From positions 1-42,923 of the forward strand of contig JAHEQB010000044.1 in assembly GCA_019561555.1 (NCBI GenBank): DNA of 42,923 nt, in the 5' to 3' direction. Shown here piece after piece: positions 376-42,923 of this stretch. The notes beneath the pieces are model-generated. The model ran no database searches, was not told where the DNA came from, and saw only the letters and a list, made by a program, of their open reading frames with translations. The position numbers were made by a program, and so were the translations under genes. The DNA is from Methanothermococcus sp. SCGC AD-155-C09. GTDB lineage: Archaea; AGJL01; Methanococci; Methanococcales; Methanococcaceae. Every line of letters starts with the position of its first letter. Position 1 is the first letter of the stretch.

Positions 376-800
376 ATAAGTTTAAAATATTATGTGTATG
401 ACTATAATCCTGTAAAGGGTTGCCCTTTCCCAATGTTCAGAAGCCTCTAAGGTAATAATGATAGGATTTCTATTTTTTATGGATTTACTCCCTTTTTAGG
501 TATTTTAAAATCTTAAATTTTTTTATGTTGTATTAATTTTTTATTTTATTTTTATGTTTTTTAAATTAATTAATCTATTGAAGTTTATAATATCTTAGGA
601 AGGATTTGTCTTTTACAGTGTTTAGGGGCATTAAGTGGATAATGGGATTTTTACTTTTATATTTTTGCTTTTTTTTATGTATTTTATTTTTTTAATTATA
701 ATTTTTAATTATTTTAAATTATTTTATTTTTTATAGGGATTCTTTATGGTTGTTTTACTATTATAATTTTTCTTAAGTCATTATTAAAAAATATGGATAA
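376..800. mobile_element. Degenerate MITE-family repeats left of GGGP synthase
   Basis: Positions 376-406 match the right terminal motif of the dispersed family (AAGTTTAAAATATTATG then ACTATA). Two core copies in G-tract orientation follow, at about 409-515 and 590-670. Each shows the block ending ATGGGATTT(C/T)TACTTTT or a close variant, and then a T-rich arm. No complete inverted-terminal-repeat pair can be drawn here, so these are truncated or nested copies. Positions 170-375 are A-rich and hold a fragment of the opposite orientation (near 270-320). I see no gene between the candidate RNA and position 808. Confidence 0.5.
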
Positions 801-1584: not shown

Positions 1585-1636
1585 TATTACACCAAAAAAA
1601 ATAATTTTATTTTTTTATTTTATTTTTTTGTTATTG

Positions 1637-1665
1637 TAGGCTAAGAAATTATGTTCTTGACTATA
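1637..1665 (-). promoter_or_regulatory. Solo MITE/IS terminal motif upstream of GGGP synthase
   Basis: Read on the minus strand this is TATAGTCAAGAACATAAT followed by TTCTTAG, a near match to the end of the IS630 element at 42224. No core or partner end lies beside it. It sits 52-80 bp upstream of the GGGP synthase start. It may be a relic end or a regulatory site; its function is inferred only from position. Confidence 0.45.
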
Positions 1666-5836: not shown

Positions 5837-6070
5837 ATGAAAACTATGGTATTAGAAAAATTAACTTCTAAAAAAGGACAGATATCTATGGAGATGAGTA
5901 TCTTAGTTGCTGCCGCTGTTGCAGTTGCTTCCATTGCTGCATTTTTCTATGTAAAAAATGTTAGAAATAGTGTAAGTAGAGCAGATCAGGCTTCTACTGA
6001 TGTAATAAATAAAATAAGTGAAACTGCAAGTAATTATGCAGGGGCTATACCAACAGATCTTAATAGTTAA
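5837..6070 (+). CDS. Class III signal peptide pilin-like protein 1
   Basis: This short (77-residue) type IV pilin-like subunit has a basic leader ending KKG, then QISMEMSIL and a hydrophobic helix (VAAAVAVASIAAFFYV). The QxSxE motif is the archaeal class III signal, cut before Q by the prepilin peptidase EppA; the helix forms the filament core. The soluble part is only about 40 residues, small even for this family. Alignment with pilin 2 suggests the true start may be the internal ATG at 5846 (MVLEKLTSKKG). Two paralogs follow in tandem. The likely place is the cell surface, in a thin pilus or as a minor pilin. Confidence 0.88.
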   Translation: MKTMVLEKLTSKKGQISMEMSILVAAAVAVASIAAFFYVKNVRNSVSRADQASTDVINKISETASNYAGAIPTDLNS

Positions 6071-6240: not shown

Positions 6241-6284
6241 TAGTTTTATATAATAAACCATAAATAATAAAATAGGTGAAAACT

Positions 6285-6527
6285 ATGATAATGGAAAAGT
6301 TAATGTCCAAAAAGGGGCAGATATCTATGGAGATAGGTATTTTAGTTGCTGCCGCTGTTGCAGTTGCTGCAATTGCTGCATACTACTACACAACAAGTGT
6401 TAAAGAGAGTGCAGAAGATGCAGGAAATAAAGCAGACGATACAATAAATACACTAGAGACAGCTACAGATACCTATAGAACTGGAATGGAGACTGAACTT
6501 ACTCTTGAAAGTTCTGGAGAAGACTAA
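6285..6527 (+). CDS. Class III signal peptide pilin-like protein 2
   Basis: The second tandem pilin has leader MIMEKLMSKKG, cleavage before QISMEIGIL, the core helix VAAAVAVAAIAAYYY, and an acidic C-terminus (about 80 residues in all). A GTG at 6276 opens the longest frame, but that GTG is part of the ribosome binding site AGGTGA. The ATG at 6285 is the right distance from it and aligns with the other leaders. The first 60 or so codons are nearly identical in sequence to pilin 1 around the signal, so the two are recent duplicates that have diverged in the tail. The likely role is a cell-surface pilus subunit. Confidence 0.9.
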   Translation: MIMEKLMSKKGQISMEIGILVAAAVAVAAIAAYYYTTSVKESAEDAGNKADDTINTLETATDTYRTGMETELTLESSGED

Positions 6528-9661: not shown

Positions 9662-10320
9662 TAACTTTACATTATACTTTTAAAAATTATTTATAATAAA
9701 TATAAAATTTAAAATCCCATTAAGAATAAAAAAATATGTTTTTAAAATTATTAAAATAATTAAAAAGATAAGGTAAAAAAATAGTAATTAAAATAAAAAG
9801 ATTAATTGAGATTTTAAAATACCTAAGAAAAGGAATAAAAACATAAAAATTAAAAATTCTATCGTTATTTTCCCTTAAGATCCTGAATAATAAAGGAAAG
9901 AATACTAATTTACAAACCCATTATAAAATTATACTAATCTAAAATAGAATTATAATTATTTATATTTTAATATTTTATTATGGTTATTTATTTTTAATTT
10001 TAAAATAATATGTTTAAAATATTATGTATTTAACTATAAAAATAAAAAATATTATAATAAATTAAATAAATTAATTTAATTTTAAAACATCTAAAAAAAA
10101 TAAAAACATAATAAGTAAAAATCCCCTTATTATCCTTTAATACTCCTAAGAACTAAGGGAAAGGATATTTTCTTAATAGCACTGACATTATAAACCTTAG
10201 TTTAAGTAAGGTAGAGATATATTTTTACAGAAATAATGCTCTTTATTATATCATCTTTTTATTATAAGATATTTTTAATTGTAAGTTTAAGAAATTCTGC
10301 ACTTAAATATATATTTTTTT
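9662..10320. mobile_element. Two degenerate MITE-family copies upstream of cdhD
   Basis: Two core copies in C-tract orientation lie at about 9820-9960 and 10080-10225. Each opens with TTTTAAAA(T/C)A(C/T)CTA(A) and then an A-rich arm; the second has AAAAATCCCC and ACTCCTAAG. Right-end motifs follow at 10011-10038 (TGTTTAAAATATTATG, then AACTATA) and, weakly, at 10281-10311. Left ends are not recognisable. I see no gene anywhere in 9662-10649. Confidence 0.55.
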
Positions 10321-11843: not shown

Positions 11844-12849
11844 TAAGTTAAAATAAAATTTAAAAATTAAAGGATAATTGGATTTTTTGTTTTTATTTAT
11901 GATATTATATTTAATCTCAAAAATAACATATTAAATCTAATAAAAAATAAAAAAAATAATAATTAAAAAAAATAAAATTAAAAAATAAAAGATTTTAAAA
12001 TATCAAGGAAAATAAAAACACAAAAAGGTAAAAATCATAAAAAAATTAAAAATAAAATTAAAATAGAATTTTATAATTAAATAAATAATAATTTAAAGAT
12101 TTTAAAATATTTAAAAGGAAAATAAAATATAAAAAAATAAAATCCTAAGAATTATCCCCCTTATACTACAAAACACAAAAAAACACAAAAAAGAATCTTT
12201 ATAATTAAATTAGAGTGATAAAAACTTAAAGTATTTCTCTTATTAAAAAATAAAAATAAATAAAAAAAATTAAAAAATAATTTAAAAAATTAAAAATTAA
12301 AATAAATAAAATAACCTAAAAAAATAATAGAATTAATCTAAATCTTAAGATATAAGGAAAAAAATAAAAAAATACTTAAAGATATAGGAGAAAAAAAAAC
12401 TTGGAAAGTAGAAATCCCATATTAATCCTCCCCTTATTCCCATATACTCCTAAGCACTGGAAGTACAGAGGAAATCCTTAATTATTGGGTTATTACATTT
12501 ATAATAAGTTTAAAGCACCATATTCATTACTATTAATTAGATTAAGGAATTATATAAACTTAAAATAAAAATAAAAGATTTTAAAATATTCAAAAGGAAA
12601 ATAGAAATAATGAAAAGTAAAAATCTTAGAATTATCCTCCTCAGACACTCCTAAGCACTGGAAGAGCAAATAAAACCCTTTAAAAGAACTATTATACTAT
12701 TAAATCTATTAAATTAACCAAGATGAACTTAAGTATTATTTATCTCACTTTATTATTTATCCTTTATTTTTTATAATCTATGGAAGTACAATTGAGGTTT
12801 AACTATAATTATCTTTGTTTATATTATTTACCTTTATCATGGTGATAAG
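11844..12849. mobile_element. MITE-family repeat block between cdhD and cdhE
   Basis: This 1-kb gap holds no gene. It is built of A-rich arms and cores of the dispersed family, all in the C-tract orientation. The clearest core is 12395-12500 (AAAGTAGAAATCCCAT, CCCATATACTCCTAAGCACT, GTACAGAGGAAATCC), ending in a right terminal motif at about 12501-12533. A second core is at 12570-12690 (ACTCCTAAGCACTGGAAG). Decayed cores are near 11992-12050 and 12105-12200. A short end-like motif (GAGGTTTAACTATAATT) lies at 12793-12809, about 45 bp before cdhE, where its promoter should be. Confidence 0.6.
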
Positions 12850-16249: not shown

Positions 16250-17098
16250 TTAATTTTTTTTATTAATTATAAATAGTATAATTCCAGCAAATATAATTAA
16301 TGCACCTACAAGTATGAGGATTTTAAGGAATATTCCTCCACCAGGGGCTTCAAAGAAGTTAGCAGGTGGAGTGTATTGGAGGACTTGATTTTTGTATGGT
16401 GTATCTCCAGATATATTATATATAATAGCGTTAGACCCGTTAAATGGAATTATTCCACTGTAATATACACTTCCTATCTCTTTATAGGGCATTTGTAATT
16501 CCCAGGTAGAATTTGTATTTAAGTTTTGGAAAACAAAGGATAGGTTATGATGATAAAAACTATTTTGATAGGTATTATTAAAGTTTATTCCATTTTCTGA
16601 TATATTTATATCCCAATGTCCATCTACATAGTTATCATCATTATAATTATCGTTCATTCTCAGTTTAATCTGAGATCCTACAGGTATTTCTGTAATGTAT
16701 GGTAGAGGAGTTATATTATATGTATGCCGCTCCCTTTGTCTAAATATTGAATATGTTGTTCCATTTGGTGCCGTCCAGGATAATACTACAGTAGGTGCCG
16801 GACTTGTGGTTCCTTTGTTGTCATTTAATTTAATCACCTGTCTTATTATCACTCCATTATCCAACTGATAGTTTATAACAGCATATCTATAATCTGGGCC
16901 TGAATATGAACTTTCTCCATCAAAGGTATTTCCTAAGGGATCGTAATAGGTATTGTTATATTTATATACTCCCAACCAGGCCTTTACAACCTTTGGATTC
17001 CCCCCCTGTATTTGTAATGGCATTAGGATTATTGTTAAAACTATTATTATCATTATTATCAATAATGGCTTTAATAATTTATTTACTATATTTACCAC
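16250..17098 (-). CDS. Secreted, membrane-anchored surface protein
   Basis: This protein of about 280 residues has an N-terminal hydrophobic signal (LLIIMIIIVLTIILMPLQ), an extracellular beta-rich domain with many N-glycosylation sequons, a short PGGG hinge and a C-terminal membrane helix (about 255-277) followed by NKKN. The domain is clearly paralogous to the one at 27968-29335: both open NPKVVKAWLGVY and share YYDPLGNTFDG, RQVIKLNDN, SENGINF and FYSGIIPFNGSNA or close forms. I cannot name the family (DUF3344 is a guess). The start is odd: the paralog's ATG aligns with ATA here, leaving GTG at 17098 or an internal ATG as alternatives. Confidence 0.8.
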   Translation of the reverse strand: MVNIVNKLLKPLLIIMIIIVLTIILMPLQIQGGNPKVVKAWLGVYKYNNTYYDPLGNTFDGESSYSGPDYRYAVINYQLDNGVIIRQVIKLNDNKGTTSPAPTVVLSWTAPNGTTYSIFRQRERHTYNITPLPYITEIPVGSQIKLRMNDNYNDDNYVDGHWDINISENGINFNNTYQNSFYHHNLSFVFQNLNTNSTWELQMPYKEIGSVYYSGIIPFNGSNAIIYNISGDTPYKNQVLQYTPPANFFEAPGGGIFLKILILVGALIIFAGIILFIINKKN

Positions 17099-17343: not shown

Positions 17344-17670
17344 TATAGTCAAGAACACAATTCCTAAACTATCTAAATATAAAAAACAGAGATAATAAAA
17401 AAATAATTTAAAAAAAAAATTTTAAAATATTAAAAAATAAATTGAAATATAAAATAACCAAAAATAATAATAAAATAACCTAAATCTAAGATAAAAAGGG
17501 AAAAAATAAAATACTTAAAGATATAAAAAAATAAATACTTAAAGAGTATAAATTCCATAAAACTGCCCCATTCCCCCATATTCCTAAGTACTGAAAGTGC
17601 AGAGGAAATTCTTTAAGCATCAGAATTACTATATTTATAATAAGTTTAAAATATCATGTGTTTTACTATA
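17344..17670. mobile_element. MITE (IS630-type ends), copy upstream of pyrH
   Basis: This 327-bp non-coding element has ends TATAGTCAAGAACACAAT on the left and, reversed, TATAGTAAAACACATGAT on the right, both followed by a TTTAAAC-like or TAAAC block. The left half is an A-rich arm. The core (17540-17640) reads ACTTAAAGAGTATAAATTCC, CCCCATATTCCTAAGTACTG, GTGCAGAGGAAATTC. The right end is only 26 bp from the pyrH start codon, so the pyrH promoter must lie inside the element. There is no coding capacity. The rest of 17099-17696 is A/T-rich with no gene. Confidence 0.75.
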
Positions 17671-19963: not shown

Positions 19964-19979
19964 TATAAGTCACCTTTTC

Positions 19980-20009
19980 ATAGTAAAGAACATAATATTT
20001 TAAACTATG
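19980..20009 (-). promoter_or_regulatory. Solo terminal motif at the promoter of the 19963 gene
   Basis: On the plus strand this reads ATAGTAAAGAACATAAT, then ATTTTAAACTATG, a close match to the IS630/MITE end. On the minus strand it gives TTTAAAATATTATG about 25-30 bp before the expected transcript start of the surface-protein gene, where a TATA box belongs. No core or second end is adjacent. Confidence 0.5.
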
Positions 20010-20243
20010 ATTGTTAAATCTCCAAAAAGATTAGAAGTCCATATATCATTTGAAAGGAATTATTTATACATTTTTAGAGGATAAGTTCAAGGAATTATGT
20101 GCTTGAATATAAATATTATATTATTATTTAAATTTATTAAAACTTTTTTGTCCAGGAACTAAGGTAAATTTTAAAATAATTATTATAAATAAATTTAAAT
20201 TTTTAAATATTAATATTAAAAAAATAATAAAAATATTAAAGAT

Positions 20244-22543: not shown

Positions 22544-22632
22544 GGCGCCAGGTGCTGTACCTGGTGGTACAGGGCGGACTTCAGATCCGTCAAGTTCTTA
22601 TGAACTCGGGGTTCGATTCCCCCCTGGCGCCG
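22544..22632 (+). tRNA. tRNA-Sec (anticodon TCA)
   Basis: This selenocysteine tRNA decodes UGA. All archaeal hallmarks are visible. The acceptor is a 9-bp GGCGCCAGG against CCTGGCGCC. The D stem is a 7-bp CTGTACC/GGTACAG with a 4-nt loop (22555-22572). The anticodon loop CTTCAGA has TCA at 22581-22583. The long variable arm is AGTTC-TTAT-GAACT, the T stem is short, and G is the discriminator. It is charged with serine, phosphorylated by PSTK and converted by SepSecS. A T-rich run at 22633-22657 should terminate it. No selenoprotein gene or SECIS element was recognised in the window. Confidence 0.98.
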
Positions 22633-23645: not shown

Positions 23646-24032
23646 TTAAGTAATAAATAAAAAAATAAAATTATTGACCTTAAAAATTAATTATACTAAA
23701 AAAATTACCATAAAGATTGTAATCTTAAATAAATCTATATATAATAAATAAAAAACTTAATATTAAAAGCGTCCAGTAAAAAAATAAAAAATAATTTAAA
23801 ATAAATAATAAATAAAATATAATCTAAAATTTTAAAACATTTAGAAGAAAAAAATAAATAAAATAAAAAAAGTAAAAATCCCATTATTTTTCTTCTCAAT
23901 ATCCCTAAGCACTCTAAAAAAAGGATATCTATAGTTAGGTTAAAGAAAATATACTATTAACAGTATTTTCTTATATTTAAGTATTTCTCTTTATTACTTA
24001 ATATTTATACTTTTATTATTTAAACTGCACAA
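23646..24032. mobile_element. Degenerate MITE-family copy before the broken gene
   Basis: A C-tract-orientation core lies at about 23826-23940 (ATTTTAAAACATTTAGAAG, AAAGTAAAAATCCCATTAT, CCCTAAGCACT). The ends are not recognisable. The remainder of this gap is A/T low complexity. Confidence 0.45.
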
Positions 24033-26363: not shown

Positions 26364-26576
26364 GGTTTCACCAGGATAAAAAAATATATATTGTTATCAT
26401 TCTATTTTAAATCTTAGATTATTATTTATATTTATAGATTTATTGTTTTTTTATTTTTTATATATAAAATATTTATTTTTTTAAGGTTATATTCATATTA
26501 TGAAGTTATTAGGACGTTCCATTTAAATAAAAGCCATTACTTTGTTTATAATAAGTACATAATAATATTTTAGATT

Positions 26577-26919
26577 TATAGTTAAGAATATAATTTCTTA
26601 AACTCATATTATAGTATAAAAAATAAAATTAAAAAATAAAATTAAAATAATCTAAAAAAATAATAAAATTAATCTAAATCCTAAGACATAGAAAAAAATA
26701 ATATTTAAAGAGATAAAGAAAAATAAATATTCAAAAAGTAGAATTCCCCACCATCATCCCTCTCTTCCTACACCTCAAACACTGTACTTAAAAAGTAGAA
26801 ATCATATACTATTACTATTCTCCTTCCCCCTACACTCAAGCACTAAAGTGCAGAGGAAATTCTTCAAGTATTGGGATTACCCCATTATAATAGGTTTAAA
26901 GTATTATATGTCTTCTATA
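26577..26919. mobile_element. MITE with duplicated core, left member of a head-to-head pair
   Basis: This 343-bp element has left end TATAGTTAAGAATATAAT and right end (reversed) TATAGAAGACATATAAT, each followed by a TTAAAC-like block. The core occurs twice (about 26735-26780 and 26790-26880); the second copy reads CCTTCCCCCTACACTC, AAGCACT, GTGCAGAGGAAATTC. It abuts the next element in the opposite orientation, sharing the TATA at 26916-26919. No gene is present. Confidence 0.7.
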
Positions 26920-27174
26920 AATAGTTACCTTTCGTTATATCTTTAGGGGTTTCCTCTGGACATCCAGTGCTTAGGAGTGTAGGGGGAAGGGGGGTAGGTT
27001 ATGGGATTTCTACTTTTTAAGTATATACTTTTCTTTGTTTTCTTTAAATATTTAATTTTTTCTTATATTAGGATTTAGGTTATTTTAATTTTATTTATTT
27101 TTAATTTTTAATTATTTTTTTATTTATTTTTTATATTTAAATTATAGTTTAAAAAATTATGTTCTCAACTATAT
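26916..27174. mobile_element. MITE, right member of the head-to-head pair
   Basis: This element of about 259 bp lies in G-tract orientation. The core (26945-27040) reads TTTCCTCTGGACATCCAGTG, CTTAGGAGTGTAGGGGG, ATGGGATTTCTACTTTT. A T-rich arm leads to a clear right end (GTTTAAAAAATTATGTTC, then AACTATA at 27168-27174). The left end is eroded. With its neighbour it forms an inverted repeat nearly 600 bp long. Confidence 0.7.
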
Positions 27175-27299
27175 ATTTAATACTATAAAATAAAAAGTCC
27201 TATTAGGAGGAAAAATTGTCCTTCTCTATAAAAAAATATTTTTTATTAAAAAAATAATTTAAAATAAAAATAAAAAAATAATTAGAAAATAAAAATAAT

Positions 27300-27604
27300 T
27301 ATAGACAAACACATAATATCTAAACTTATAATATATAATAAAGAGAACAAAATGCCAATAAAGAGAAGTACTTTAAGCCCTATTTCATTTTTTGAGTATA
27401 ATTCCCATAATAAACCCTATAAAGAAATTCTACATCTCTCCAGTGCTTGAGAGTATTACGGAGAATAATTATGGGATTTCTACTTTTTTAAATATTTATT
27501 CCTTTTTAGATATTTTAAAATCTTAGATTATTTTTTATTTTATTACTTTTAATTTTTTAATTATTTCTTTATAGTTTAGTATATATAGTTTTGTTTAGGA
27601 CTAT
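27300..27604. mobile_element. MITE, G-tract orientation
   Basis: The 305-bp copy has left end TATAGACAAACACATAAT (27300-27317) followed by CTAAACTTATAAT, core 27400-27490 (CCAGTGCTTGAGAG, ATGGGATTTCTACTTTT), a T-rich arm with TATTTTAAAATCTTAG, and a weaker right end closing GGACTATA (27597-27604). It has diverged more than the copy at 31356. Confidence 0.65.
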
Positions 27605-27819
27605 AATCATAATCGAAGATATAATCTTAAATAATTCCTCAGACTATAAGAATAAAAGAGAATAATAAAGAAAGATACTTTAAATCCCTACCTATTGAGT
27701 ATAACTTTCATAATTTATCCTGTAAGAAATTCTTCCTATTCTCTTTTAGTACTCAGAGTATCAAGGAGAATAATAAGGGACTTTACTTCTTTTTGGATAT
27801 TTTAAAATCTTTTATTTTT
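27605..27819. mobile_element. Truncated MITE copy next to an IS630 remnant
   Basis: The core at about 27725-27810 (CCTGTAAGAAATTCTTCC, GTACTCAGAGTAT, GGGACTTTACTTC, TATTTTAAAATCTTTTA) lies in G-tract orientation. Its left end is barely recognisable near 27602-27632. Its right arm is cut at 27820, where the IS630 end fragment begins. Confidence 0.5.
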
Positions 27820-27945
27820 TATAGTTAAGCACATAACCTTAACCCATCTCCTAAAAATTTATAATAACTACTTGCAAATGAGGATATAGATTCTGTAATT
27901 TTTTAAAATTCTAGTAATTATAATTTAAAACATTTATTCTTTGGT
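27820..27945. mobile_element. Remnant of an IS630-family element end
   Basis: Starting with TATAGTTAAGCACATAA, this stretch follows the sequence at 42224-42340 nearly base by base: CCTAAAAATTTATAATAACT, CTTGCAAATGA, ATATAGATT, TGTAATTTTTT. At 42224 the same segment is the terminal repeat plus the last codons of the transposase. Only about 125 bp survive, with indels, so this is a dead end left by a lost IS copy. Confidence 0.7.
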
Positions 27946-27967
27946 TTTTATCTATCAATTTAAATCC

Positions 27968-29335
27968 TCATTTTAACATCTCCTCCAACTCACTTACATC
28001 ATAACCTTCTTTTTTCCATTTTTCCACTTTTGATCTAAATTCTTTCATCTTTCTTTCGTCGTATTCTTTTTTTCTTTTTCTAGATGTATAATAATTTACT
28101 GCCAATATTAGTATGATTGCAATTATAATAGAGTAGATGTAGTAGTTGTTTATGTAAGGTGCAAAATCTTCTTCATTTGGAATACTATCCTGATCTATAT
28201 CTAAGGCTAGGGATTTTGCCTCTAAAGCAGTTTTCTTTGCTTTAGAGTAGTCTCCCTTGTTAAATGCCTCTTCAGCTTGAGATAGTAGAGATTCTGCTTC
28301 TTTTATATTGTATTTTGATTTTATCTGGGAGATTGTTGATTTGGCGTCTTTTATTATCCCATCAACAGTTTGTGCCTTCTCTTTTATTTTTATTGCCGTA
28401 TCCTTAGCATTTAGAGCAAGTTCCTTTGCTTTAGAGTAGTCTCCCTTGTTAAATGCCTCTTCAGCTTGAGATAGTAGAGATTCTGCTTCTTTTATATTGT
28501 ATTTTGATTTTATCTGGGAGATTGTTGATTTGGTATCTTCTATTGTCTTTTCAGCTTCTTCAGCCTGATAATCCATTTCAACAGTCTTTTCCTTAGATTT
28601 CGAAGCACTTCCACCAGAGGATTTAAAGAGTTCAGTAGGTGGAGCAAACTGTAAAATCTTGCCTGCATATGGAGTATCACCATGTATATTATATATAGTA
28701 GCATTGGATCCATTAAATGGAATTATTCCACTGTAGAAGACTCTACTTGCAATAGTATTTTTATTTTTATATGGCATTTGCACTTCCCAGATAGAATTTG
28801 TATTTAAGTTTTGGAAAACAAAGGAGACATTATGATAATAACAACCATATTGACTGGCTTCAATAAAGTTTATTCCATTTTCTGATATATGTACTATCCA
28901 AATCCCATTTCCATAAGCAGTACCAGCATAATTATCAGCCATTGATATTTTAATCTGAGATCCTACTGGTATTTCACTCTCATATTTGTTTATCACAGTC
29001 TGATTAGGTAAATTATGTACTACCCAATTTTTATCATTCCAATATAATACTGTAGTGGCTGCAGGGTCTGTAGTTCCGAGATTATCATTTAATTTAATCA
29101 CCTGTCTTATTATGTCTCCGTTACTCAACTGATAGTTTATAACGGTATATATATAGTCTGAACCCTCAAATGAACTACTTCCATCAAAGGTATTTCCTAA
29201 GGGATCGTAATAGGTACCGTTATATCTATATACCCCTAACCAGGCCTTTACAACCTTTGGATTTTCTCCATATACCTGTAATGGCATTAGGATTATCACT
29301 ATTATCAACAATAATTTTAATAAATTATTTATCAT
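27968..29335 (-). CDS. Membrane-anchored surface protein with coiled-coil repeats
   Basis: The protein has 455 residues: signal peptide (1-23), an extracellular domain (26-230) paralogous to the 16250-17098 protein, a Ser/Lys-rich hinge, a helical stalk (about 245-372), one membrane helix (about 385-405) and a charged cytoplasmic tail. The stalk contains two 63-residue units, each with TISQIKSKYNIKEAESLLSQ and AEEAFNKGDYSKAK. At DNA level 110 bp (28235-28344 and 28424-28533) are identical, including silent positions, so the duplication is recent or kept uniform by conversion. The period is 189 bp, in frame. It lies between the DUF39 and NIL-ferredoxin genes on the same strand. Adhesion or surface display is a guess. 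Confidence 0.82.
   Translation of the reverse strand: MINNLLKLLLIIVIILMPLQVYGENPKVVKAWLGVYRYNGTYYDPLGNTFDGSSSFEGSDYIYTVINYQLSNGDIIRQVIKLNDNLGTTDPAATTVLYWNDKNWVVHNLPNQTVINKYESEIPVGSQIKISMADNYAGTAYGNGIWIVHISENGINFIEASQYGCYYHNVSFVFQNLNTNSIWEVQMPYKNKNTIASRVFYSGIIPFNGSNATIYNIHGDTPYAGKILQFAPPTELFKSSGGSASKSKEKTVEMDYQAEEAEKTIEDTKSTISQIKSKYNIKEAESLLSQAEEAFNKGDYSKAKELALNAKDTAIKIKEKAQTVDGIIKDAKSTISQIKSKYNIKEAESLLSQAEEAFNKGDYSKAKKTALEAKSLALDIDQDSIPNEEDFAPYINNYYIYSIIIAIILILAVNYYTSRKRKKEYDERKMKEFRSKVEKWKKEGYDVSELEEMLK
28235..28533 (-). repeat. Exact 110-bp in-frame direct repeat within the stalk
   Basis: Copies at 28235-28344 and 28424-28533 are identical over 110 bases, spaced 189 bp (63 codons). The first mismatch on each side is immediate. 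Unequal recombination would add or remove whole 63-residue stalk units without breaking the frame. Confidence 0.9.
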
Positions 29336-29385
29336 AATTATCCCCTTTCGAGTGTGTCTATGTAATTTTTTGAAGGCTCTGGTAT

Positions 29386-29414
29386 TATAGTTTAAACATT
29401 AATGCTTAACTATA
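29386..29414. promoter_or_regulatory. Solo terminal-like motif upstream of the 29335 gene
   Basis: On the minus strand this reads TATAGTTAAGCATTAATG, then TTTAAACTATAATACC. It is 51-80 bp before the surface-gene start and has no core beside it. The TTTAAACTATA part could be a TATA element. Confidence 0.4.
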
Positions 29415-29488
29415 TTTATTTTTGTTTTTTTAATTATGAATTATTTTTTAATAAATTTTATAGTATTTTTTTATTTTTTTTTTTGGAA

Positions 29489-31027
29489 TTAATGTTTTTT
29501 ATATCCCAATAATTTTGAGAGATCCTCTGCAGTTACCATTCCTATGATCTTTCCATTTTTATCAATTACTGGAACCCCTGATATGTTATATTTGCTCATT
29601 TTTCTTGCTACAACATCAATGGGCTCATCTAAGGTTGTACTTATAACCTGCCTGGTCATTATATCAAATATTGAGTTAATATTCTGGGCCACAGCCCTTG
29701 CAATATCCCATGATGTTAAAATACCCACTAATTTATGATTGTTATCTACAATAGGTAGGTGATTTATGTTCTTTTCAATAAGTATTTTTGAGGCCTCAGT
29801 TATGGATATATCTGAAGTTGCCACAATAGGGGGTCTGCTAATAATATCCCTTACCAATTTTGCTATTGGTTTCATAGGTTTATTTGAGCCCCTTCCCAAA
29901 TTATCCACTGGTTCAGATAGGGTAAATTCCCCTTTTAATATCCATCTTTTAAGTTCCTCGGCAACTTCAATGGACTTTTTATAACTGGAAACAGATGCAG
30001 TTTTTATGGTTTTTTCTATTACCTTACCTGTTTCATCCTCCCTAATTTCAATAGTAATTTCACCAGTCCTAAGATCTTTATAATTTGTTTTGGATACAAT
30101 GGGCCTATCCCTTCTTGGAACACCATAATCCACAATGGGAACCATAATTTCCTCATCCCTTATACCACAGGCCCTTGCAATGTCCTCATTTAAAATAGGT
30201 ATTGGAACCCCAATTCCAATAAATAAAGTACTTCCATACTTTGGTATAGTAGCCCCTCTAAGGAAATTACGATTCATTGTTTTTAAATCTCCCTTTACCA
30301 TCAAAGTTCCAAAGGCTCCCTCGGGATCATGCTGGGTACCCTCTCCTATGATGTATCCAATACCTCCTCCAAGGAATATTTTAGTACCAATTCCTATGGT
30401 ATTGTAGGATTTATTTTTTATATTGTAGTCATTTTGAAGGGGATTTAATTGTCCTGCTCCAGAATAATTTATATTGGAATACTCAGGAAGTAAAGCCCCC
30501 ATATAGGTATATATTTTTTCCTCTCTACTATTTGTGGCGGCTCCATAGGTTTGATAACAGTTTCTTGGATTCAATAGTATGGCCTGGTTTAAGTCCTCTA
30601 TTGTTATTGTGGTAGAGGCTCTTTTTCTTGGATAGCAATCTGTGGTATAGCCCTCTGCAACAAGTTGGATTTCCTTGCCTGCTACAAGATCCTCAATAAC
30701 ATGACCTCCCCCATAGTCAATATCAATATCAACATCAGAGTTAGGTTGGGCGGCTCCCAAATATGCATCCACTGCTGCCAATCCAGAGTAGGCCTCCACT
30801 CCATTGAGATAGGTTTTCATCATCTTTATAGGTGGATCAGCATGGCCAAAATTTAAAAATACTCCACTGGAACACATTGCACCAAAGGTACCTGTTGTAA
30901 CAACATCTACCTCCTTTGCCCCATTCTTTGGCCCTATATCCTCCACCACATTGATCATTTCTTCGGCAGTTAAAACTACGGCATCTCCATTCTTTATTTT
31001 TTCATTTATGTCCTTAATGGTTTTCAT
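29489..31027 (-). CDS. DUF39-CBS L-aspartate semialdehyde sulfurtransferase
   Basis: This enzyme builds homocysteine directly from aspartate semialdehyde and a sulfide-derived persulfide in methanogens that lack the usual route. The 512 residues comprise a DUF39 (COG1900) domain (about 1-375) and two C-terminal CBS domains (about 385-508; HLPIVDNNHKLVGILTSWDI and SGVPVIDKNGKIIGMVTAED), which may sense adenosyl compounds. C52 (GAMCSSGVFLNFGHADPP) and C131 (YTTDCYPRKR) lie where the family's two important cysteines are expected. GGGGG precedes the ATG. The partner ferredoxin is at 25962-26363. A MITE begins 329 bp upstream of the start. Confidence 0.9.
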   Translation of the reverse strand: MKTIKDINEKIKNGDAVVLTAEEMINVVEDIGPKNGAKEVDVVTTGTFGAMCSSGVFLNFGHADPPIKMMKTYLNGVEAYSGLAAVDAYLGAAQPNSDVDIDIDYGGGHVIEDLVAGKEIQLVAEGYTTDCYPRKRASTTITIEDLNQAILLNPRNCYQTYGAATNSREEKIYTYMGALLPEYSNINYSGAGQLNPLQNDYNIKNKSYNTIGIGTKIFLGGGIGYIIGEGTQHDPEGAFGTLMVKGDLKTMNRNFLRGATIPKYGSTLFIGIGVPIPILNEDIARACGIRDEEIMVPIVDYGVPRRDRPIVSKTNYKDLRTGEITIEIREDETGKVIEKTIKTASVSSYKKSIEVAEELKRWILKGEFTLSEPVDNLGRGSNKPMKPIAKLVRDIISRPPIVATSDISITEASKILIEKNINHLPIVDNNHKLVGILTSWDIARAVAQNINSIFDIMTRQVISTTLDEPIDVVARKMSKYNISGVPVIDKNGKIIGMVTAEDLSKLLGYKKH

Positions 31028-31355
31028 AGTGGCCCCCTAATTTAATATTTAAAAATAAAAAAATATTTATTTTAAAATTATTTTTTAATAATAATTATTA
31101 AAACTTTTTTATATTAATTACCTAACATTAACATTTATAGGACTTTAAAAAAATGATAAAAGTTTTTTAAGGATCTATGCCTTTTTATAGATTTTTAATT
31201 TCCTAAATGGTTCATTTTCTAAAATGTTTTATTTATAAATTCCTTTTTTTAATTATTTTATTTTTATAATAATTTTTTAAAAAAATAAACTTTTATATTA
31301 TTTTAATTTTAATTATTTCTATATTTTGTTTTTTTAATTATACTTTTATTTTAAT

Positions 31356-31674
31356 TGTAGTCAAGGACATAATAATTTAAACTTATTATGGATATAGCAT
31401 CCATACTTAAAGGGTTTTCTCTGGACATCCAGTGCTTAGGGGTGTAGGGGGGAGGGGGGTATGTTAAATGGGATTTCTACTTTTTAAGTATTTACTTTTT
31501 TATTTCTTTAAATAATTAATTTTTTCCTATATTTTAGGATTTAGGGTATTTAATTTTATTATTTTTTAATTATTTTTATTTTTTTAATTATTTTAATTAT
31601 TTTTATTTTTTTAATTTTTTTATTTATTTTTTATATTTGGATTATGGTTTAAAAAATTATGTTCTTAACTATAA
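31356..31674. mobile_element. Best-preserved MITE (IS630-type ends)
   Basis: The element is 319 bp. Its left end is TGTAGTCAAGGACATAAT then AATTTAAACTTATTATGG. Its right end, reversed, is TATAGTTAAGAACATAAT then TTTTTAAACCATAATCC. These ends match each other and the IS630 end at 42224 (about 28 of 35 positions for the right end). The core (31405-31510) has CTCTGGACATCCAGTGCTTA, the G-tracts GGGG/GGGGGG/GGGGGG (31439-31459) and GGGATTTCTACTTTTTAAG. A T-rich arm fills the rest. There is no reading frame of note. Confidence 0.8.
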
Positions 31675-34388: not shown

Positions 34389-34964
34389 ATACATCACTTA
34401 ACTAATTTTGTAAATTTGAATATATATTCCTATGGAATTTAATTTATAGATTATAAAAAGTAGTAAAATATTAATTTATAAAGTATATAAAAATTATTAA
34501 TTAGATATATAAAATTGTATATAATTAAAGGTTATCTTAAAAAATATTTATTTATTAAATATAAAAAAATTCAATTTTTAGTAGAAATTCAATAAAAAAT
34601 ATGATAATAACATAAAATTAAAAATATAATCTAAAAATAAAAAAATAATTAAAATTAAAATAAATTATTAAAAATAAAATAATAAAATAAATAATAGTCT
34701 AAGATTTTAAAACACCTAAAAAAAATAAAAACTAAAAAGTAAAAATCCTTTATTCTTTAGATGCTACACCTAAACTGAAGGAGTATGTAGAATTTCTATA
34801 CAGAACCAATTATAAAAGTCCATATTAATTTAAGGTGGAGGATTAGAATATTCTTTTATTAATATATTATTTTTTTATTAATTTTAATTTTTTTATACTA
34901 CATAATTATAATTTAAAATATTTATATTTTTTTAATTAAAATATTATTTATTATTAGTTATATC
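34389..34964. mobile_element. Degenerate MITE-family copy, C-tract orientation
   Basis: The core at about 34695-34850 includes GATTTTAAAACACCTAAAA, AAAAGTAAAAATCC and GTAGAATTTCTATACAG. An A-rich arm precedes it (34620-34700). It then ends in the alternative tail CCAATTATAAAAGTCCATA, which also occurs near 9920-9950. No clear terminal motif remains. No gene is seen in this gap. Confidence 0.45.
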
Positions 34965-37641: not shown

Positions 37642-38134
37642 AATTCCACAGGCATTTAAGGATATATTATGTAGATTAGAAATTAAAAATAATATGAGAT
37701 AATTACAGATATGGAAATATATAAAAATTAATATAAAAATAAAATATATAATAATATCTAAAATATAAAAAAATAAAAATAATTTAAAATAATTAAAAAA
37801 ATAAAGGATAATTAAGATAAAAATAGGCAATTTAAGACTTTAAAAATGTCTAAAAAGAAATAAATAACAAAAAGTAGAAATCCTACATTTATATTCCATG
37901 TATGTCCAAGTATTGGGGAAAAGAGTACTTCTTGACAAGACTGGCAGAACCTTAATTTAGGGGGTAAAGGTATATTTATAATATAATTTTATATTGGGTT
38001 TTATATTTTATTTTTTATTCTATAATTATTATATTTTACTGAATATTCTAATAATTTCTTTTTATTTTTTTTATTTTATATTTTTTTAAATTTATAATAT
38101 CTTGATAGTTTTTTATTTATCATAGTATCAGATA
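37642..38134. mobile_element. Degenerate MITE-family copy between cbiB and DUF530-like gene
   Basis: The core at about 37825-37945 lies in C-tract orientation (GACTTTAAAAATGTCTAAAA, AAAAGTAGAAATCCTAC, TGTCCAAGTATTGGGG) and ends in the alternative tail (CAGAACCTTAATTTAGGGG). No terminal repeats are recognised. The rest is T-rich and no gene is visible. Confidence 0.5.
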
Positions 38135-42223: not shown

Positions 42224-42923
42224 TATAGTCAAGAACATAATTCTCTAAACTCATAACCTAAAAATTTATTAATAACTCCCTGCAAATGATATAGATTTTG
42301 TTAATTTTTTGAAAGATTTAGATATTATTTCCTTTAATTTTTTTATATTCAATGGGGATTCCTCAGAAATGTATCTTTTAACACTTTTCCAAACATATTC
42401 TATAGGATTCAAATCTGGAGAGTAAGGAGGGAGATATACTAACTGGATATCCAGTTTCTCAGATTCTTCTTTAACCTTCTTTGCATGATGAGTTTTAAAA
42501 TTATCTAAGATAATAACAATTCTCTTCTCAGGATTAACCTCTCTTATCTTCCGGAGAAAAGATATAAAGTCTTCAATCCTGTTACTATCTGGGAAATCCA
42601 CCACACCCTTTCCATTTAAAGGATAGAATCCTATAACTTTAACTTTAAGATAAGTAGCAACTTTTCTAAGGATCCAGTCCTTCCAGAATCTTGTTCTATT
42701 TACATTTCCTTCAACTGCCATCTCATCGATGAATCCAACTATTATATCATTGATTTCTACATTATTCAAGTTTTTTTTAAAATCTCTTAGCATTATCCCT
42801 TTTCTATAATCTTTCTGATAGACCTTAGTATATTTCATGCCAAAAGATCTTAGAATCCTTCTGACATATGGTATAATGAGTATTTTATTCCAAATTTTTC
42901 TCTAATTAACTTCTGTATTTCTT
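42224..42923 (-). mobile_element. IS630-family insertion sequence, partial (runs off the window)
   Basis: The element begins at TATAGTCAAGAACATAAT (42224-42241), then CTCTAAACTCATAACC. The transposase stop codon follows 27 bp later, so this is its terminal inverted repeat. The terminal TA fits TA-target insertion typical of IS630/Tc1. The other end lies beyond 42923. This end is the reference that ties the dispersed MITEs to a transposase. Confidence 0.75.
42269..42923 (-). pseudogene. IS630-family transposase, frameshifted and partial
   Basis: The readable C-terminal part (189 residues) is the DDE catalytic domain: FIDEMAVEGN (first Asp region), IVIILDNFKTHHAKKV (second Asp) and LPPYSPDLNPIEYVWKSVKR (Glu), the IS630 signature. 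Upstream of the apparent ATG at 42838 the frame continues as YVRRILRSFGMKY, but the rest of the N-terminal helix-turn-helix (EIQKLIREKFGIKYSLYH) is in another frame. The two join cleanly if the AT in CATATGTC is an extra dinucleotide. So this copy is probably dead, unless the element uses programmed frameshifting. The protein's N-terminus lies outside the window. Confidence 0.82.

Follow-up and report, generated by a model that had tools for sequence, protein, structure and literature searches.

Short repeats with the ends TATAGT(C/T)AAGnACATAAT lie between the genes of the 42,923-nucleotide contig analysed here (contig C44 of the Methanothermococcus genome G000; "the window" denotes this whole stretch), and the same contig runs into an insertion sequence of the IS630 family, which raises the question of what these repeats are and what has moved them. 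The answer that we regard as highly probable is that one family (A) consists of MITEs built on the ends of the resident IS630, that a second (B) is an older relative and that a third (C) is a deletion derivative of the IS630. The assembly of G000 comprises 1.73 Mb in 115 contigs and is about 90% complete, and it was compared with the sister species G002, G007 and G001, the genes of G000 and G002 being about 90-94% identical. The census DNA consisted of 755 kb of G000, the window included, and 579 kb of G002, taken by stretches.

Family A was established from 27 copies that could be delimited end to end and aligned, which carry paired ends in the form of terminal inverted repeats and measure 266-314 bp, with a consensus of 290 bases; for the family, the length was found to be 244-323 bp (median 290). 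The consensus starts with TATAGTCAAGGACATAATAATTTAAACTTATTATGG, contains a G-rich core, CACATCCAGTGCTTAGGGGTGTAGGGGGAAGGGGGGTAGGTTATGGGATTTCTACTTTTTAAG, followed by a T/A tract of variable length, and ends with TTTAAAAAATTATGTTCTTAACTATA. The two ends are distinguished by base 11, which is C or G in 41 of 43 left ends and A in all 43 right ends. No ORF of at least 60 aa was detected within 26400-27960. The identity between A copies has a median of 78% and exceeds 92% in no pair, which implies that the last burst of A was not very recent; young copies could also be hidden, identical ones having been lost in assembly. Several peculiarities were recorded in passing: at L029 1731-1881, the right end of an A copy forms four tandem repeats with a period of 44 bp; a 13-mer of the transposase gene, CTGGACATCCAGT (L032, near IS630 base 880), is likewise seen within the core in about one third of A copies, possibly by chance; and two ORFs (L011 446-1454 and L151 2587-3544) have their stop, TAG and TAA respectively, given by the end of an A copy. 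Elements supplied stop codons to genes in only 2 of 51 copies.

The dispersal of these elements is extensive. When 26560-27180 was searched against G000 itself, 232 matches were obtained, and the A profile gave 178 matches in the 755-kb G000 sample (113 above 50 bits, 49 covering at least 90% of the length; 3.8% of this DNA, most stretches of which had been picked for holding matches) and 33 in the 579 kb of G002 (18 above 50 bits; 0.8% of the DNA). The profile of family B, seeded by 27300-27604 and run after masking A, gave 146 matches in G000 (4.0%) and 42 in G002 (1.4%). Searching reversed G000 DNA with the same two profiles at E<=1e-6 yielded no match to either A or B. That the repeats are nothing more than intergenic DNA rich in A/T, alike by chance or composition, is practically out of the question: the outer third is indeed low-complexity T/A, and repeat finding without gaps groups A/T tracts that are unrelated, but the empty reversed control and the paired ends refute it, and the G-rich core and the empty sites described below likewise speak against it.

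Because many of the sampled stretches had been picked for their matches, the density figure was taken from the unselected contigs C1-C10, where A and B together occupy 6.8% of all bases and 22% of the non-coding ones. These 128.5 kb hold 11 A copies above 50 bits and 26 B copies, and by extrapolation the whole genome would carry about 150 A and about 350 B copies. The element bases fall, to 99%, outside ORFs of at least 110 codons. With the A/T-rich part left out of the search, strong A matches were restricted to G000, G002 and G007; G005, G001 and G016 yielded one or two weak matches, and B shows the same pattern plus a few marginal matches elsewhere. In other families of the order, the A consensus gave weak matches that were dismissed because nearly all of them vanish without the A/T-rich part.

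Three A copies of the window retain both ends. They are located at 17344..17670 on the minus strand (nhmmer 102 bits; blastn to other copies), at 31356..31673 on the plus strand (205 bits; 95% to the consensus over 3-135), the interval of which is empty in G002, and at 26577..26919 on the minus strand, where the core is duplicated in tandem inside the element, with ends read directly and two profile matches, one at 26577-26784 (model positions 75-290) and one at 26785-26911 (model positions 10-133). A further copy at 26941..27173 on the plus strand (180 bits; model 51-290) is without the left end, carries the right end AATTATGTTCTCAACTATA and is absent in G002 and G007. The remaining traces of A comprise a decayed copy at 12244..12534 on the minus strand (96 bits; empty in G002), the right end of which is not delimited, a core fragment at 12574..12683 on the same strand (31 bits), and a solo right-end fragment at about 1607..1665 on the plus strand, identified by blastn and by the exact end AATTATGTTCTTGACTATA at 1647-1665.

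Family B has the same left end and core as A and a different right end, ...AATTTTTTTAAGATTATA, which corresponds only in part to the inverted left end. Among 99 long B copies, the left end was recognised in 52 (2.6% in control places), the right motif in 56 (10% in the control) and both in 26. The full-length copy of the window, 27300..27604 on the plus strand (nhmmer 152 bits, and by sequence), begins with TATAGACAAACACATAAT and has a right end that reads inward TATAGTCCTAAACAAAAC. It is followed on the same strand by a decayed copy at 27648..27826, found by the profile, for which a B fragment is present in the matching gap of G002. The B profile further located fragments at 403..554 and 579..732 on the plus strand and, on the minus strand, a tandem pair at 9768..9995 and 10040..10266, both common to G002, a fragment at 12073..12243 that abuts an A copy, and copies at 23779..24028, 34665..34895 and 37782..38036. 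In G001, two MITE-like elements were observed, one (L056 1340-1606) combining a B-type end with an A-type right end around an unrelated body and the other (L189 1501-1758) having both B ends with another body between them.

Family C is shorter, at 130-133 bp, and the sample contains about six copies, of which two are found in the window: 19979..20111 on the plus strand (nhmmer 102 bits), which keeps the last approximately 105 bp of IS630, and 27821..27934 on the minus strand, found by the profile, which is decayed and has lost its left end. A sister copy matches IS630 1008-1114, the last 107 bp of IS630, at 78% identity, and judged by its sequence family C is a classical internal deletion of IS630. 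The preliminary description had recognised a dispersed MITE family, and the ends, core and spread are as claimed there; it had treated the elements as a single family, and this part gives way to three. The copy at 27300-27604, which had been included with the others, belongs to B by its different right end, and the roughly ten decayed copies are mostly of family B; 19979-20111 and 27821-27934 are C. The claim that elements fill most of the long gaps must be reduced from "most" to "much", because the share of A and B in the window's non-coding DNA is 24.7%. The statement that simple internal deletions do not account for the elements holds for A and B, but C, in the same window, is just such a derivative.

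The IS630 occupies the end of the window, where its 3' 700 bp (42224..42923, minus strand; Pfam DDE_3 9e-26, NCBIfam NF033545 1.9e-35) include the DDE part of the transposase at 42269-42838; this copy is decayed upstream and runs off the contig. Its end at 42224 reads TATAGTCAAGAACATAATT. The sequence of C78:1-609 overlaps this IS630 and is near-identical to it, so that the far end can very probably be placed at C78:591-609. About ten copies or fragments exist in G000, several of them cut by contig ends, and IS630-type repeats therefore also limit the assembly. Three copies are full-length (on C32, C102 and C79; 1114, 1115 and 1109 bp), with TATA at both ends. Membership of the IS630 family is indicated by the DDE transposase, which scores 122.8 bits against the NF033545 cut-off of 100, by the size of about 1.11 kb and by the TA ends; a DD34E spacing of 34 residues, from the second D (LDNF) to the E (NPIE), was read from the L032 translation. 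In the C32 copy (L032 959-2072), the transposase is divided between two overlapping frames meeting at TTTTAAAAAAAAC, and the A8 tract at this junction is conserved in C78 and C44, which makes it a candidate site of programmed -1 frameshifting, or else a result of decay. The nearest named relative found is 44% identical and comes from Methanoperedenaceae.

Among 12 genomes of the genus, DDE_3 transposases occur only in G000, and among them neither another transposase of this kind nor an autonomous partner with both B ends was detected. IS630 remnants are present in the two closest species, G007 (78% identical over 648 bp) and, as a fragment, G002; the simplest reading is that IS630 was carried by the common ancestor, decayed in G002 and G007 and persists in G000, which has the highest A load. 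The ends of A resemble those of IS630 at 35 of 42 positions on the right and 25 of 31 on the left, and the left/right difference is the same, IS630 base 11 being C in three of four left ends and A in all nine right ends. A as an internal deletion of IS630 was ruled out, given that the A consensus in blastn and tblastx matches the ends only; inside A, the matches to IS630 are of low complexity only.

The target site of A could be read from the flanks of 43 full copies, which show AAT before and ATT after the TA (AAT-TA-ATT), with TA at both ends in 38 of them. Two precise empty sites with a single TA were found, one for the G000 copy C92:10229-10522 compared with G002 C58 and a second for C34:36407-36697, where A is nested in a B element; the junctions were this exact in these two only, most others being blurred by A/T-rich drift. 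Junctions sought by joining flanks and comparing them with G002 proved to be mostly chance alignments of A/T-rich DNA and were discarded. The matching G002 interval contains an A match for none of eight young, bridged A copies and for three of 21 older ones, and a B match for eight of 17 B copies, and sharing with G002 thus forms an age series from young A through older A to B. One older A copy, L163:13665-13930, is common to G007. The preliminary description had held that the MITE ends match the resident IS630, as the end comparison bears out, and had looked to four further observations: many copies with matching paired ends, TA duplications, empty orthologous sites and an IS630 far end with the same motif. 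All four have been made, in the 27 aligned copies, in the TA target with its two single-TA empty sites, in the absence of all eight young A copies from G002, and in the far end, which carries the motif.

As the best-conserved part and one that is common to A and B, the core might instead represent a structured non-coding RNA or a cis-regulatory signal, the elements being kept for this function, and a hairpin with mostly G-U-compatible changes is possible there. Such a role is very improbable: the folding energy lies barely below that of shuffled sequences (mean z of -1.3 for A and -0.5 for B), the covariation score of 0.254 was reached by 54 of 500 shuffles, RNAalifold likewise gave no support, no Rfam match occurs in the elements, and the young copies are absent from the close relative. 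The elements lack coding capacity, and the best interpretation is that they are parasites which the host tolerates in the spaces between its genes.

How A has been mobilised can be proposed from its ends. The IS630 transposase would recognise the shared terminal sequences, TATAGTCAAGnACATAAT... on the left and TATAGTTAAGAACATAATT... on the right, cut the element out and insert it at a TA, mostly within AAT-TA-ATT, whereby the TA would be duplicated. It may still be able to move A today, although a working enzyme is put in doubt by the C32 IS630, which is divided between two frames, and by the window copy, which is decayed upstream. For A, this proposal draws on the shared ends with their left/right difference, the TA target, the dispersal, the empty sites, the age gradient and the partner IS, and family B was probably moved by an earlier IS630-type transposase. 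Counted against the explanation is the A body, for which no source was found beyond the IS630-like ends. It is also conceivable, albeit rather unlikely, that A (and B) owed their movement to another IS630-like transposase, one that has since been lost and with which the resident IS630 shares only the ends by descent, as might be suggested by the B right end being unlike the resident IS630, by the different joining of these ends in the G001 elements, and by the survival of A-like elements in G002 and G007, which hold IS630 remnants only. Against this stand the A ends, which over 31-42 bp are 81-83% identical to the resident IS630 and show its left/right difference, the highest A load where IS630 persists (3.8% in sampled G000 versus 0.8% in G002, which is without a transposase match), and the fact that IS630 is also the parent of family C. 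A further, tentative suggestion, somewhat doubtful in itself, is that the core is a module handed between sets of transposon ends, as the younger A and the older B share the left end and core but differ in the right end, and G001 has elements with other combinations of these ends; if true, MITEs would renew themselves by swapping an end onto whatever IS630 is active at the time.

In eukaryotes, Stowaway MITEs and their Tc1/mariner partners are characterised by a TA target, a body that is often unrelated to the partner and many copies. By description, A resembles them in these three respects and in its partner from the IS630-Tc1-mariner group, the partner here being a prokaryotic IS630 in an archaeon. 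A survey of archaea reported 18 new MITE families of 2-34 copies, one of them IS630-linked, and its table 4 lists for M. mazei an 89-bp MITE of ISMma9 (IS630 family) with five copies, Methanococcales being absent among the hosts in that table (PMC3852290). Family A is like those MITEs in being short and non-coding, with only its ends similar to a resident IS of the same family, and unlike them in its 290 bp and in the extrapolated 150 or so A and 350 or so B copies, as opposed to 2-34. The Sulfolobus elements SM1-SM4 number 25-44 copies each (PMC10969869), and SMN1 (320 bp) and SM3A are said to depend on ISC1733 and ISC1058, respectively (PMC3718332). These are likewise non-autonomous, rely on a resident IS transposase and vary in copy number between strains, but by their descriptions they are set apart by other IS partners and fewer copies. 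As far as these three sources show, the kind of element is known, and the family and its load are new. Several hundred elements make up roughly one quarter of G000's non-coding DNA, which shows that in a small archaeal genome MITEs can reach about 7% of the DNA, a load well above surveyed archaeal copy numbers. The young A, the old B, the deletion C and an IS630 that is kept in one species and decayed in two sister species provide a natural series for the birth and decay of MITEs.

Other features of the window deserve mention. Placement of the host in the Methanococcales is in keeping with the selenocysteine tRNA gene listed below and with its relatives, which are small and A/T-rich. In place of the segment 26396-29494, G007 has 43 bp and G002 has 225 bp, and the gene at 27968-29335 is absent from the matching place in both. 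This gene, which encodes a coiled-coil-like region and has a 189-bp internal duplication at 28215-28592, is related to the one at 16250-17098, with DNA stretches 80-82% identical; both are function-unassigned, and similar stretches occur in C33, G004, G005 and others. A duplicated small gene pair at 5837-6070 and 6276-6527 resembles TIGR04205, the class III signal peptide associated with archaeosortase D, at a score below the cut-off of that model, and a selenocysteine tRNA gene is located at 22544-22631 (Rfam RF01852, 68.9 bits).
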